Shown here in pieces: positions 37,293 to 47,744 of a DNA stretch of 64,000 bases. A program made the position numbers and the translations under genes. The DNA comes from Vannielia litorea. Lineage in GTDB: Bacteria; Pseudomonadota; Alphaproteobacteria; Rhodobacterales; Rhodobacteraceae. The notes under the pieces are model-generated. The model saw only the letters and a list, made by a program, of their open reading frames with translations. It did not search any database and had not been told where the DNA came from. The DNA is taken from the NCBI RefSeq assembly GCF_900142295.1, contig NZ_FSRL01000001.1, forward strand, positions 1,364,001-1,428,000, written 5' to 3'. Position 1 is the stretch's first letter. The number at the start of each line of letters is the position of its first letter.

Positions 37293-38009
37293 ATGCGTAT
37301 ACTCTTGGTTGAAGACGATCCCACCACCGCGAAGAGCATCGAGATGATGCTGACCCATGCCAACCTGAACGTGTATTCGACGGACCTGGGCGAAGAGGGG
37401 ATCGACCTGGCCAAGCTCTACGATTACGACCTCATCCTGCTCGATCTCAACCTGCCCGACATGACCGGCCACGAGGTGCTGCGCCAGCTCCGGCTCGCGC
37501 GGATCGATACGCCGATCCTGATCCTGTCGGGCGCGGATGACACCGAGAACAAGATCAAGGGGTTCGGCTTCGGGGCCGACGACTACCTGACCAAGCCGTT
37601 CCACCGCGAGGAGCTGGTGGCGCGCATCCATGCGATCATTCGCCGCTCCAAGGGCCATGCGCAGAGCGTCATCAAGACCGGCAAGATCGTGGTGAACCTC
37701 GATGCAAAGACGGTGGAGGTGGACGCGCGGCCGGTGCATCTGACCGGCAAGGAATACCAGATGCTGGAGCTTCTGAGCCTGCGCAAGGGCACGACGCTGA
37801 CCAAGGAGATGTTTCTCAACCACCTCTACGGCGGGATGGACGAGCCGGAACTGAAGATCATCGACGTGTTCATCTGCAAGCTCCGCAAGAAGCTCGCCGC
37901 GGCGACGGGCGGCGACAACTACATCGAGACGGTCTGGGGCCGGGGCTATGTGCTGCGCGATCCCGAACCGATGGAAGACAGCGGCAAACGGTTCGCCGTG
38001 GGCGCCTGA
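37293..38009 (+). CDS. ctrA: Cell-cycle response regulator CtrA
   Basis: OmpR-type response regulator that in Rhodobacterales mainly controls motility and gene-transfer-agent genes. The 238-residue protein has acidic pocket EDDP, phosphoacceptor Asp51 in [14 protein letters not shown] and Lys101 in [10 protein letters not shown]. The winged-helix half carries [17 protein letters not shown] and [12 protein letters not shown], both strongly CtrA-like. It is preceded by sciP and followed by a stable hairpin. The last ~12 residues form a variable tail. Confidence 0.97.
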
Positions 38010-38070: not shown

Positions 38071-42494
<4,424 letters not shown>

Positions 42495-42499
42495 CTTTT

Positions 42500-42557
42500 G
42501 TTCTCAAAAGGTTAACGCCGGAATTCACTTCTGTTCGCGGATGTTCTCAAAAAGTTC
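42500..42557 (+). promoter_or_regulatory. Candidate LexA (SOS) boxes
   Basis: GTTCTCAAAAAGTTC at 42543-42557 is a perfect GTTC-N7-GTTC, the LexA box of alphaproteobacteria. A second, near-perfect copy (GTTC-TCAAAAG-GTTA) lies at 42500-42514; both share the spacer TCAAAA. They precede the 36-residue peptide gene by 62 and 105 bases, and a TATGAG -10-like element lies just downstream near 42575. Confidence 0.65.
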
Positions 42558-42619
42558 TGGACAGTCTGTGCGCGATATGAGAACAAAGTGGCAACGAAAC
42601 GCCCGAAGGATCGCCGCCC

Positions 42620-42730
42620 ATGATCACCAAGCTCTCGCACCACATTCCGCTGCTCGCGCAAGACGCCATTGGCGCCGTGGCCCTGATGGTTCTGCTGGTC
42701 GGGGGGCTGCATCTGCCCGGACTTCTCTAG
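42620..42730 (+). CDS. 36-residue membrane peptide, putatively SOS-induced
   Basis: A short gene with AAGGA nine bases before the ATG. The peptide starts MITKLSHHIPLLAQ, amphipathic and His-rich. One membrane span follows at about residues 16-36 (AIGAVALMVLLVGGLHLPGL), ending almost in the membrane. It has no named homologue that I can confirm. The LexA boxes upstream and the small single-span form recall SOS-induced division inhibitors such as Caulobacter SidA. That is an analogy of architecture, not of sequence. Confidence 0.6.
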   Translation: MITKLSHHIPLLAQDAIGAVALMVLLVGGLHLPGLL

Positions 42731-42739
42731 AGTTTCTCT

Positions 42740-42874
42740 GCGGGGTGACAGTTGCCTCTTGTCACCCGGCTTGCCTGCGGTCCAGGGACCGGGCGCACCG
42801 CATCCACCTGTCCCCAACAACGGGATGCGCGCGCTCTCTTGCCTGTTCCGAGCGCCTCTTCGGGCCTTCCCCGC
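42740..42874 (+). ncRNA. Candidate structured RNA
   Basis: GCGGGG at 42740-42745 can pair with CCCCGC at 42869-42874 and enclose several helices. These include GGGTGACA (42743-42750) with TGTCACCC (42760-42767), an 8-bp stem that competes with the outer one, and GGTCC with GGACC near 42779-42790. GCATCC (42800) also pairs with GGATGC (42823), with GCGC flanks. It precedes a strong terminator. It is either a 3' UTR of the 36-residue gene or a separate RNA of about 200 nt; 6S RNA is a possibility I could not confirm. Confidence 0.35.
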
Positions 42875-42907
42875 CCGGCGCCCGGTCTCTGCCACCGTCC
42901 TAGCCTG

Positions 42908-42944
42908 CCGCCGCCACCCGACCGGGTGTGCGGCGGTTTTTTTT
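42908..42944 (+). terminator. Strong Rho-independent terminator
   Basis: CCGCCG (42908-42913) pairs with CGGCGG (42931-42936) and, inside it, CACCCG with CGGGTG; eight T residues follow (42937-42944). This is the best intrinsic terminator in the window. It is about 210 bases beyond the 36-residue gene, which implies transcription of the whole interval. Confidence 0.9.
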
Positions 42945-43004
42945 GGTGGATGGGGCGTTGGAGGGCAATCGGCCGGGTCTGTGCCGCGGGCGCGCAGGGT
43001 CTCG

Positions 43005-43178
43005 GCTGGACGGTCACGTGCCGGTCGAACGGCGAAGAAGCCTCGGCCGAACGGTCACGCGTCGGCCATTCGGCCGGGCCACCGCCGGAGCGTCAAGCGC
43101 GGGCCAGACGGCCAGGCCTCCGCCGGATGGTCAGGCGCCGGCGAAAGGGCCAGGCCCACGCCGAATGGTCAGGCGCCG
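43005..43178. repeat. 19-bp tandem repeat array, nine units
   Basis: Nine degenerate units with consensus near GCCGGACGGTCAGGCGCCG run head to tail at 43005, 43024, 43046, 43065, 43084, 43103, 43122, 43141 and 43160. All are 19 bp except the second, which is 22 bp. Most keep a GGTCA or GGCCA core. The array begins 60 bp after the terminator, and its last unit covers the final codons of the minus-strand NifU-like gene. The 19-bp period is not a multiple of three, so it is not a protein repeat. Confidence 0.75.
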
Positions 43179-43609
43179 GCCTGCTCCATCGCCTCGGCCA
43201 AGGCCTCCAGCGTGAGCATGATCGAGGCGTGGCGGTTGCGGTAGCCCCGCGCGGGCAGCAGCACCTCGTAATCCTCGAAAGGCGCGTCGGGCACCGGGCC
43301 CTCGGCGGTGAGCATCGCCTTGAGCTGGTCGCGGGCGGTGCGGATCTCCTCGGCTGTGCGGCCGATCACATTGGCCCCGACGATGGCGGCTGAGGCCTGG
43401 CCAAGGGCGCAGGCCTTCACATCCTGCCCGAAGGCCGAAATGCGCCCGTCCTCGACGTTCAGATCGACGGTCACGGTGGAGCCGCAGAGGGGCGAGCGCC
43501 GCTTGACCGTGGCCTGGGGTGCCTCCAGCCGGTCGGTCAGCGGAATGTCGGCCGCGAGCGACAGAATCCGGCCCGAGTAGAGCTTGATCAGGTCGTTTTC
43601 GGCGTTCAT
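43169..43609 (-). CDS. NifU/IscU-like iron-sulfur scaffold protein
   Basis: A 146-residue protein with the NifU_N/SufU fold: [27 protein letters not shown] (Cys42) and [14 protein letters not shown] (Cys68). The third cluster ligand of IscU/SufU, a Cys in an R-x-x-C-A-x-L context, is replaced by His127 in RNRHASIML. It may bind a cluster with Cys2His or act in another transfer step. No isc or suf genes are nearby. The ATG is at 43609; the stop lies within the tandem repeat array. Confidence 0.82.
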
Positions 43610-44891: not shown

Positions 44892-46252
44892 GCCGGTTCA
44901 ACGGGTTGGGCGGCAGAGTTCAACCAGGCCTGCCAATCTTCCTTGGCACGGTCGGTGTAGGCCTTGTAGCGGTCCTTGCGGCCCCGGCGGCCGCCCTTGG
45001 CCTCGACCGGCGGGAAAAGCCCGAAGTTCACGTTCATCGGCTGGAAGGTCTTGGCCTCCGCGCCACCGGTGATGTGGGTGACGAGCGCGCCCATGGCGGT
45101 GGTCTCTGGCACCGGTGGAAGGCGCTCGCCGCGCAGTTCGGCCACGGCGAGGCGACCGGCGAGCAGACCCATGGCGGTGCTCTCGACATAGCCCTCGACC
45201 CCGGTGATCTGGCCGGCGAAGCGGATGTGGGGCCGGGACTTCAGCCGCATCTCGGCGTCGAGCAGCGTGGGGCTGTTGAGGAAGGTGTTGCGGTGGATGC
45301 CGCCGAGGCGGGCGAACTGCGCGTTCTCAAGGCCCGGAATCATTCGGAATACAGAGGCTTGCGCGCCATACTTCATCTTGGTCTGGAAGCCCACGATGTT
45401 GTAGAGCGTGCCCAGCTTGTTGTCGCGCCGCAGCTGGACGACGGCATAGGCCTTCTCGTCGGGCTTGTGGGCGTTGGTGAGGCCGATGGGCTTCATGGGG
45501 CCGTGGCGGAGGGTCTCGCGGCCGCGCTCGGCCATGACCTCGATGGGCAGGCAGCCGTCGAAGTATTTCGCGGTCTCGCCCTCGCGGAACTCGGTTTTCT
45601 CGGCCTCGAGCAGCGCGTCGATGAAGGCCTCATACTGGGCGCGGTTCATCGGGCAGTTCATGTAGGCGGTGCGCTCTTCCTCGGTCTCGCCCTTGTCGTA
45701 GCGCGACTGCATCCAAGCCACGGACATGTCGACGGTGTCGGCGTGGACGATGGGGGCGATGGCATCGAAGAAGGCGAGGGCCTCGGCGCCAGTCTCGGCG
45801 GCGATTGCCTCGGCCAGGGCACCGGAGGTCAGCGGGCCGGTGGCGATGATGGCAAGGCCATCCTCGGGCTTGGGCAGGGCGGTGATTTCGCCTTCGGAAA
45901 CAGTGACAAGCGGGTGGTTTCTCAACTGTGCGGTGATCCACTCGGAAAACGGCTCGCGGTCGATCCCGAGCGCCGATCCAGCGGGGAGCGCGTGACGGTC
46001 GGCGGAGGTGATGACGAGGCCTTGAGCGGCGCGCATCTCCCAGTGCAGGAGGCCCACGGCGTTTTGCTCGTCGTCGTCGGAGCGGAAGGAGTTGGAGCAG
46101 ACCATCTCGGCAAAGTTGCCGGTCTGATGGGCGAAGGTGCCGATGTGGGGGCGCATTTCGTGGAGCACCACGGGGATGCCTGCGGAGACGGCCTGCCATG
46201 CGGCCTCGGAGCCGGCCATGCCGGCGCCGATGATATGGAGCGGTTTGGTCAT
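44888..46252 (-). CDS. trmFO: Methylenetetrahydrofolate-tRNA-(uracil-5-)-methyltransferase TrmFO
   Basis: FAD- and folate-dependent enzyme methylating U54 of tRNA. The 454-residue protein has the FAD-binding [13 protein letters not shown] at the N-terminus, the conserved catalytic Cys in [11 protein letters not shown] and [12 protein letters not shown], and the [14 protein letters not shown]-terminal motif. The ATG at 46252 is chosen because it begins directly at the FAD motif. It is coupled to gluQ. Confidence 0.95.
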
Positions 46253-46292
46253 GGGGGCGGAGATAGGGCCTCCGCCCCGATTTGGAAAGCCC

Positions 46293-47081
46293 TCAGCGGC
46301 TGCCGACGAAATCCCAGACCAGGCCGCGCTCGAGCAGCGGCTGCAGCGGGCGGACCGGGGCGAAGTTGCGCTGCGCCGCAGTGGCACGGGCAGTGCGGGC
46401 GCCGCCGATGGCCGCCGTGAGGCCGATGGTGACGCGGGTTTCGCTGGCGGTGTGCGTGCCGGAGATCCGGGTGTGGCTGGCCCCGAGGGAGAGCGCCACG
46501 GGCGCGTCGGGGAGGTGGTAGCTGAGGCCGAGGTCGAGCGTGGTGCCGGTGAGCGCGGCGCGGGCCTCGTCGGCATCGACGATGCCGAGGCGGCCGGAAA
46601 GAGCAAGCTGCCGGGTCAGGGCGTGGCGTGCGCCCAGCGAGGCAAAGAGGTAATCGACCTCGGAGGGGTCGGCGCGGCCCATGCCGGCGCGGGCCTCGAC
46701 GGTGGTGGAGCTCCCGAGCGACCAGATGCCCTCGACGCCGATCTCGGTGGTGGCGGCCTCCCTGTCATCGGCATCGGAGTAGGCGAAGAAGAGGCCGTAC
46801 TTGGCCGCCTGGGTGGGCTGGAGATAGGCATGGGCGGCGAGGGTGCCGAACCAGATGTTGCCGTAGTCGATGATGCCCAGATCGAGCTGAAGGCCGTGCT
46901 GGGCGGTGATCGCGAAGTCCGCACTGGCATCCAGCGTGGTGAGGGTGCCGGTTTCGCCAGAGGCATGGCCGAGCGTCAGTTCGGCGCCGGAAAAGCCGAT
47001 GGCGGAGCTTTGGGCTTGGGTGGGGAGGGGCAGCAGGGCGCTGGCAACGGCAAGGGCTGCCGCGCAGATGCGGGTTTTCAT
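46293..47081 (-). CDS. Putative outer-membrane beta-barrel protein
   Basis: A 262-residue product with a signal peptide ([20 protein letters not shown]) and about 200 residues of alternating hydrophobic/polar strands ([45 protein letters not shown]), typical of small barrels. The C-terminus lacks an obvious terminal aromatic signal, so a periplasmic soluble beta protein is possible. A perfect GAAC-N7-GAAC box (minus strand) sits 50 bases upstream of the ATG. Confidence 0.6.
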
Positions 47082-47130
47082 GGTCTGATCCTTTGTGCGA
47101 GTGACCGAGCCCCCATCCACCGGCCCTGTC

Positions 47131-47145
47131 GTTCGTCCCGTGTTC
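47131..47145 (-). promoter_or_regulatory. Second candidate LexA-type box
   Basis: GTTCGTCCCGTGTTC is a perfect GTTC-N7-GTTC located 50 bp upstream of the putative barrel-protein start on the minus strand. The 8 fixed bases occur by chance about twice in a window this size, so this one alone is weak evidence. Confidence 0.35.
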
Positions 47146-47272
47146 TGCCCGACTTCGCGCCAAATTTGAAAGGAATCCGCAACCATTGGTTAACCGATGC
47201 CCGCCTGGACCTAACCCGGAGCCAGGTTCTGCGCCCTGGGCGCGCCGCTCGGGCGGCATCCCGACGGCCAGA

Positions 47273-47308
47273 CAAAAAAGGGGGCGCCGCAACACACGCG
47301 ACGCCCCT
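47273..47308 (-). terminator. Rho-independent terminator of the DoxX-like gene
   Basis: Read on the minus strand, GGGGCGTCGC and GCGGCGCCCC pair over 10 bp (one G-T) with a 7-base loop, followed by CTTTTTT. It lies about 35 bases after the stop of the gene at 47343. Confidence 0.85.
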
Positions 47309-47342
47309 GAGTGAAGTCCGTTCGACCAGTGCGGTTACGATG

Positions 47343-47744
47343 CTAGAGATCAGTCAGCCCGGACCATCCTTTACGATAGAGTGCGAAGGCGCCTCCGCCT
47401 GCCGCGAGGAGCGGAAGGGCGAGGCCGAAAGCGACGAAGATGCCGATGCCGAGGTTGTCGGCCTCGAGGCCGCCGCTGGAGATCGTGTAGCCCGCGTAGA
47501 TCACCAGGCCGATGGCGGTGACGAGGCGGGTGCGGATGCCGAAGGCCACCCAGATCGCGATGACGATCAGTAGCGCGTTGACGGCGATGAATTGAAAGGT
47601 TTCGACAGGGGCCCTGAAAGCAGAGACGCCGGTTGACGCCTCTGCTGCCAGGGAGGGAACGACGAGCGTGGAGAGTGCCTGGTTGGCAAGGATATAGGCA
47701 AACGCCAGGCGGAATGCGCATTGCGCAAGAGGTGTAACTGTCAT
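47343..47744 (-). CDS. DoxX-like integral membrane protein
   Basis: A 133-residue protein with four predicted spans (FRLAFAYILANQALSTLVVP, FIAVNALLIVIAIWVAFGI, LVTAIGLVIYAGYTISS, LGIGIFVAFGLALPLLAAGG). Size and topology fit the DoxX/DoxD family, whose members act in redox-linked membrane processes. The match is by topology only. It is transcribed alone: an AT-rich gap with a GATGAA/TTCATC hairpin separates it from the LysR-type gene and a clear terminator follows. Confidence 0.65.
   Translation of the reverse strand: MTVTPLAQCAFRLAFAYILANQALSTLVVPSLAAEASTGVSAFRAPVETFQFIAVNALLIVIAIWVAFGIRTRLVTAIGLVIYAGYTISSGGLEADNLGIGIFVAFGLALPLLAAGGGAFALYRKGWSGLTDL

Follow-up and report, generated by a model that had tools for sequence, protein, structure and literature searches.

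The closest described systems to the locus reported here are small membrane proteins linked to the DNA damage response. In Caulobacter crescentus, SidA, a 29-residue, SOS-induced peptide of the inner membrane, has FtsW and FtsN as interaction partners. FtsW/FtsI/FtsN are the targets of SidA and DidA, and both membrane micropeptides that have been described for Caulobacter as induced by damage are division inhibitors (PMC4211646). The membrane helix of YneA binds FtsW, and models by the same authors, whose confidence is not high, put SidA, SosA, and ChiZ on FtsW as well (PMC13396833). DinQ, a peptide with a single transmembrane span, is SOS-regulated and toxic (PMC3567139). For Rhodobacteraceae, no SOS division inhibitor was found described in the literature searched. 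A LexA study in Dinoroseobacter names the lexA, recA, dprA, pde2, flagellar, pilus, and GTA promoters, and recG is absent from its main text (PMC6473078). We also found no description of the peptide or the RNA reported below in a search that left outside its scope most subscription papers and supplementary files, for example those of PMC8632094, which lists Rhodobacterales RNA motifs. The locus lies in a 64,000-nt stretch of Vannielia litorea DNA (the window). Judged from sequence, it is a LexA-type transcription unit of about 350 nt specific to Rhodobacteraceae, whose peptide gene and structured 3'UTR are probably co-transcribed.

The unit is on the forward strand, as are all of its features, and its upstream anchor is recG (40404..42494), which encodes an ATP-dependent DNA helicase (NCBIfam NF008164, 1088 bits; Pfam domains). 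The initial annotation had placed a perfect LexA box, GTTC-N7-GTTC, ahead of a short peptide gene. This box (GTTCTCAAAAAGTTC, 42543..42557, operator 1) is present and is kept family-wide. A one-mismatch copy, GTTC-N7-GTTA (GTTCTCAAAAGGTTA), had also been noted, and it does occur at 42500..42514, but it is not conserved within the genus, being missing in two genus rows (L003 and L004). The conserved second site lies downstream instead, GAAC-N7-CAAC at 42581..42595 (operator 2), over the presumed −10/start region. An additional half-site 10 bp upstream of operator 1 (42533..42536) is GTTC in 97 of 107 loci. TGGACA (42558..42563) is the presumed −35, and TTTACA stands at the equivalent site, directly after the box, in 71 of the 107 loci. 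A scan with consensus promoters, which is a weak test as not all promoter types are covered, recognised none on either strand.

A single box is no better than chance by itself. The window contains two exact GTTC-N7-GTTC sequences against a shuffle mean of 1.59, two or more occurred in 46 of 100 shuffles, and the whole genome contains 63. The second exact box of the window (GTTCGTCCCGTGTTC, 47131-47145) is inside an ORF (46137-47573) and is probably there by chance. For operator 1, conservation gives the significance. Among 108 recG-linked loci, which are the better-scoring profile matches and not a random draw, 107 have the exact box between recG and the peptide (L007 is the exception), and only 2 exact boxes occur in the 244,877 bases of the same loci outside this interval. 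Thus a chance occurrence is ruled out, even though the single box lacks significance. The exact box is also found in 24 of the 25 initial homologues and in 79 of 80 named loci, whose genomes overlap with the 108-locus set. In the recG-linked loci, the flanks of the box are conserved nearly as well as the box. Boxes of this class also lie upstream of recA (21 of 25 loci) and lexA (21 of 21), no more than about 600 nt away, the family and other families being pooled. A conserved GTTC-N7-GTTC in the promoter is what marks the alphaproteobacterial LexA (SOS) regulon, to which the unit would accordingly be assigned.

Operator 2 is degenerate (CAAC) in most loci. Its sequence is GAAC-N7-CAAC in 100 of 107, the other second halves being GAAC (2), TAAC (4), and AAAC (1), and GAAC-N7-NAAC starts 23 bp after operator 1 in 98 of 107. 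Four divergent members (L205, L206, L208, and L216) have a perfect GAAC-N7-GAAC as the downstream site, which supports LexA as the reader of operator 2. The arrangement suggests two LexA dimers over the −35 and −10. Since about 97% of the SOS promoters of Caulobacter have a single box (PMC12700426), the presence of two operators hints that a harmful product is kept under tight control.

The short gene with a good ribosome-binding site was recovered as annotated. It is a 36-codon ORF (42620..42730) with an ATG at 42620 and a TAG stop at 42728-42730, and AAGGA (42606..42610) is located 9 nt before the ATG. The peptide starts with ATG in all 109 distinct loci (118 given, minus 9 duplicates), and purine-rich, mostly GGAG-like stretches were seen by eye ahead of the 109 ATGs. 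Members are 36–42 residues long, with 40 residues in 86 loci, 39 in 11, 36 in 7, and 42 in 5. The pN/pS ratio was 0.32 over 36 independent pairs and 1.16 and 2.45 in the two wrong frames of the same DNA, which rules out a non-coding ORF; the peptide frame is under purifying selection. In a 25-row peptide profile (A1), Asp15, Gly18, and Leu30 are invariant and Leu22, Leu26, Leu32, and Pro33 are conserved in at least 90% of the rows. AlphaFold2 predicts one helix at residues 9–35 with a mean pLDDT of 77. In having a tiny peptide with a single hydrophobic span downstream of a LexA box, the locus shows the hallmark of the SidA type, and we infer that the peptide is located in the inner membrane in an N-in/C-out orientation. 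The invariance of Asp and Gly hints at a specific partner. The peptide gave no match in Pfam and one in NCBIfam far under the cut-off (E 0.31), and its profile matched no solved structure by sequence. An origin from phages or plasmids was rejected, as the L008 peptide had no tblastn match in either and 26 family members had none in PHROGs.

A peptide of this kind might regulate another membrane process during the SOS response, such as a transporter, the CckA/CtrA relay, gene transfer agent release, or respiration. Small bitopic proteins often tune transporters and kinases. Upstream of ligA-recG there is also an OmpR-type response regulator gene (37293-38009; Response_reg and Trans_reg_C), a possible cell-cycle regulator close to the SOS unit, which we guess to be CtrA. 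We regard such a role as rather unlikely; it has no direct support, and the two damage-induced membrane micropeptides of Caulobacter both inhibit division (PMC4211646). Division inhibition is the function that we prefer for the peptide.

The position after recG, pointed out in the initial annotation, is a near-fixed trait in Rhodobacteraceae, found in 108 of the 109 distinct loci. The first search covered 61 genomes and listed 35 matches at E up to 10. Twenty-five (L001-L025) were taken as homologues, all with recG directly upstream; the other ten (L026-L030 and five without a locus) sit in long frames and were judged spurious. The A1 profile matches 261 of 295 Rhodobacteraceae genomes (one per genus), and 232 of 260 when only genomes with at least 90% completeness and no more than 5% contamination are considered. 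By our own count, a second profile match is listed in 13 of the 261. Class-wide, A1 matched 5 of 289 genomes, four of which are Rhodobacteraceae; the fifth match is weak, lies within a 290-residue frame, and was judged spurious. A named scan kept 80 loci from 170 relatives, with recG synteny in 80 of 80, and all of them come from genomes named as Rhodobacteraceae or from genera that we take to be members. Reading frame and box are both conserved in the relatives, across the family, so that a LexA-box promoter before a conserved single-span membrane peptide, as originally proposed, is now strongly supported. For other families, 28 recG loci were examined, the best matches among 132 genomes in which recG was found. 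None had a box in the 600 nt following recG, and the unit therefore appears to be an innovation of the family that hardly changes its place. Two deviations were seen inside the family. Peptide and recG are about 66 kb apart in G580, and L119 (G575) has the peptide but no recG in its stretch. They could be rare relocations, which would be useful for asking whether the linkage to recG matters.

Among the 34 genomes without a profile match, recG was searched in 20 and matched in 19, at recG level in 16; lexA matched in 17 of 20 genomes without a profile match, 16 of them above the cut-off, so that the pattern of losses is uninformative as to a joint loss of peptide and lexA. We read 14 such loci downstream of recG. 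In our reading, eight (L205-L208, L210-L212, and L216) have a divergent short hydrophobic ORF behind LexA-type boxes. The AT-rich locus L217 has GAACAAAACAAGAAC and, at the same place, a short ORF that is hydrophobic but unrecognisable in sequence, so the layout may outlive the sequence. No unit was seen downstream of recG in L209 and L213-L215, and the sequence of L218 ends early. The genomes with a lexA match include G023, G348, and G402, in which this reading downstream of recG showed no peptide. G020, G035, G352, and G448 have no recG-level match (Mfd-level at most) and no peptide match; lexA was matched in G020, G448, and, under the cut-off, G352, and not in G035. These four may have lost recG together with the unit, or their assemblies may have gaps.

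The promoter and the ORF of the initial annotation stood, but the picture had missed a 3'UTR with conserved structure (42731-42943). In the genus alignment, the stretch from the peptide to the terminator is conserved. A first 3'UTR hairpin (GGGUGACA...UGUCACCC, 42743..42767) is seen in L001-L006. It is followed by a structured RNA (42777..42898), identified by its fold, the genus consensus, and a weak match of the model R2 described below, in which a closing helix (42777-42796 paired with 42878-42898) encloses three hairpins. The closing helix and hairpin 1 (42799-42829, loop with CCUGUCCCC) appear in both the single-sequence fold and the genus consensus. Hairpin 2 (42831-42855, loop UCUUGCCUGUUCC) and hairpin 3 (42861-42877, loop CUUCCCC) are from the single-sequence fold, the genus consensus being partly different there. 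The unit ends in a predicted intrinsic terminator (42907..42945), a hairpin with a T run that folds at −27.0 kcal/mol and pairs in the genus consensus; the consensus scanner did not list it. A strong hairpin with T5 was found in 105 of 108 loci, at a median of 174 nt after the stop. Just beyond the unit is a degenerate 38-bp tandem repeat (43046-43181; 3.6 copies, 78% matches), which adjoins a SufU-like gene on the opposite strand.

The structure recurs across the family. CTGCCTGCG is found in 53 of 102 UTRs and CCTGTCCC in 69 of 102, against at most 8 in mononucleotide shuffles. In a set of 184 UTRs, which includes loci of overlapping genomes, CTGTCC or TGCCTG occurs at least once in 179 and at least twice in 162. 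Single UTR sequences fold alike, with a closing helix, hairpins (loops CUGUCCC, CUGCCUGUCC, and UGCCUC), and then the terminator, and CUGCCUG/CUGUCCC is repeated in the loops. The mean MFE z-score was −2.5 for 60 of 175 trimmed UTRs, 62% of them below −2. For the window, the UTR with its terminator (42731-42943) had a z-score of −6.17, and none of 200 shuffles was as stable. No Rfam match was found in the 1-kb stretch of the window, and the loci of seven relatives gave sub-threshold matches only, all outside the structured element. UdsC of Rhodobacter sphaeroides was rejected as the identity of this RNA, as it is RpoHII-dependent and 67 nt long (PMC9779115). A conserved ORF beside an independently conserved RNA structure, both between a single promoter and a single terminator, is the arrangement of a putative dual-function RNA.

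A strong RNA structure on the transcript of a single-span peptide with a LexA box also recalls the TisB/DinQ-like SOS membrane toxins, which share the size class. The peptide would then lower membrane potential or function and slow growth, and the RNA would provide translational control. However, toxin modules are patchy in distribution, whereas the present unit occupies a nearly fixed place in most genera of the family. The RNA structure of tisB and dinQ is at the 5' side, and here it lies 3'. The specific partner suggested by the invariant Asp and Gly also speaks against a toxin. Neither Rfam in the 1 kb nor, in a weak test, the consensus promoter scan of both strands gave a sign of an antisense or antitoxin RNA gene, which may count against a toxin as well. 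We therefore consider a toxin unlikely and retain division inhibition by the peptide as the working interpretation.

The covariation of the 3'UTR structure is strong. RNAalifold recovered only the terminator from a 56-sequence alignment (A6), we think because MAFFT misaligned hairpins of variable length. The model accordingly comes from A7, a sequence-only alignment of 15 close sequences picked for aligning and folding alike. In A7, 18 of 40 pairs show two-sided change (8.6 in shuffles) in 36 cells (14.0 in shuffles), and 83.9% of the cells pair, against 78.5% in shuffles and 30–43% in slid controls; one slid control reaches 19 two-sided pairs, with 25 cells. The resulting model, R1, was tested on 100 of the 109 peptide loci and matched 70 at E up to 0.1, including 10 training rows. 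All matches are on the gene strand just after the stop, the farthest (L066) starting about 105 nt after it. R1 gave one match (E 0.064) on 75 control sources and none in the window. In a fitted alignment (A8), which is biased towards structure by design, 40 of 40 pairs change on both sides (32.4 in shuffles), with 551 two-sided cells against 170 in shuffles and at most 149 in slid controls.

The model built from A8, R2, matched 79 of 87 loci (80 named and 7 of the genus). Some of the named loci come from genomes that had already served for training, and the sequences of two missed loci (L320 and L380) stop short of the UTR. R2 also matched 15 of 30 divergent loci at E up to 0.05; in five of the 30 the unit is missing or doubtful. 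The weak match of R2 in the window is at 42789-42886 (18.9 bits, E 0.056), and the scores for L002-L007 are 23–33 bits. The consensus of the seven genus members contains 62 pairs, of which 10 show two-sided change, 9 show one-sided change, and 43 are invariant, with 32 of 434 cells unpaired. Genome-wide, R2 matched 51 of 120 genomes, many of which supplied training rows, with one match each. Forty-one of the matches lie directly 3' of known peptide coordinates, and the remaining 10 all have recG, an exact box, and a peptide ORF just upstream. No extra RNA copies were seen elsewhere in the 120 genomes under strict filters, which lose weak members and left 69 genomes without any match, that of the window among them.

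Covariation across the whole structure and the repeated C-rich loop motifs raise the idea that the RNA is the main product, an SOS-induced regulatory RNA, with a peptide that is minor or tunes RNA stability through its translation. UTR-derived sRNAs are documented in R. sphaeroides (PMC8625941). The peptide, however, is under purifying selection, keeps to a narrow range of 36–42 residues with invariant positions, and is absent from none of the 51 genome-wide RNA matches, which makes this idea improbable in our view.

By analogy with the known inhibitors, we hypothesize that the peptide inhibits division during the SOS response in the manner of SidA, that its transcript may have a dual function, and that it binds the late divisome; we give this an even chance of being correct. 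Division inhibition is proposed because SidA and DidA act on FtsW/FtsI/FtsN and the YneA helix binds FtsW. Following established SOS biology, LexA would occupy operators 1 and 2 and keep the promoter tightly shut, and RecA-triggered LexA cleavage would free it. The peptide would insert into the inner membrane, N-in/C-out, and its conserved helix face (the invariant Asp and Gly, with Leu/Leu-Pro near the C-terminus) may bind a late divisome membrane protein, the likeliest partners being FtsW/FtsI/FtsN. Such binding would delay septation until repair is finished. The role of the 3'UTR RNA is speculative. Most likely it serves either as a riboregulator or, within its own transcript, as an element for stability or binding, and the repeated C-rich loops suggest base-pairing to targets or a protein partner. 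More tentatively, the unit may be a checkpoint module, in which one LexA-controlled transcript gives both a membrane division inhibitor and a trans-acting 3' riboregulator with three C-rich loops, a possibility about which we have more doubt than confidence.

Members of the Rhodobacteraceae, among them Ruegeria, Phaeobacter, Sulfitobacter, Rhodovulum, and their kin, occur in abundance and have been studied well. The locus would supply them with a candidate SOS division inhibitor in 261 of the 295 sampled genera. Its peptide has no Pfam, NCBIfam, or PHROGs model, and the adjoining structured RNA has no Rfam counterpart above threshold. For the DNA damage response, it would be unusual to yield two outputs in this way, a peptide and an RNA structure under constraint within a single SOS-type transcript. 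If true, the dual-output checkpoint module would be of a new kind and would occur almost throughout a major marine and phototrophic family.

Among known systems, SidA resembles the unit in being a tiny single-span peptide of an alphaproteobacterium under LexA control, which is indicated here by the box. The present peptide differs in being 36–42 residues long, in occurring family-wide, and in nearly always following recG, and its unit has two operators and a structured 3'UTR. We know of no structured 3'UTR in SidA-type inhibitors. DidA, YneA, SosA, and ChiZ are likewise small membrane proteins, and all four are raised by DNA damage, for which the box stands here. DidA is SOS-independent, unlike the LexA-box peptide, and YneA and ChiZ carry LysM domains (PMC13396833), whereas our peptide is little more than one helix. 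TisB and DinQ share SOS control (here by the box), a single hydrophobic helix, and a regulated RNA, but no antisense partner was seen here, the distribution is near-core, and the structure is at the 3' end. On the RNA side, a short ORF followed by a structured RNA with C-rich loops is reminiscent of the UTR-derived sRNAs and the small ORF-CcsR1-4 cluster of R. sphaeroides and of RNAIII of Staphylococcus aureus. The promoters and loop motifs differ, and the RNA here is predicted to form one cloverleaf-like element in place of repeated hairpins.
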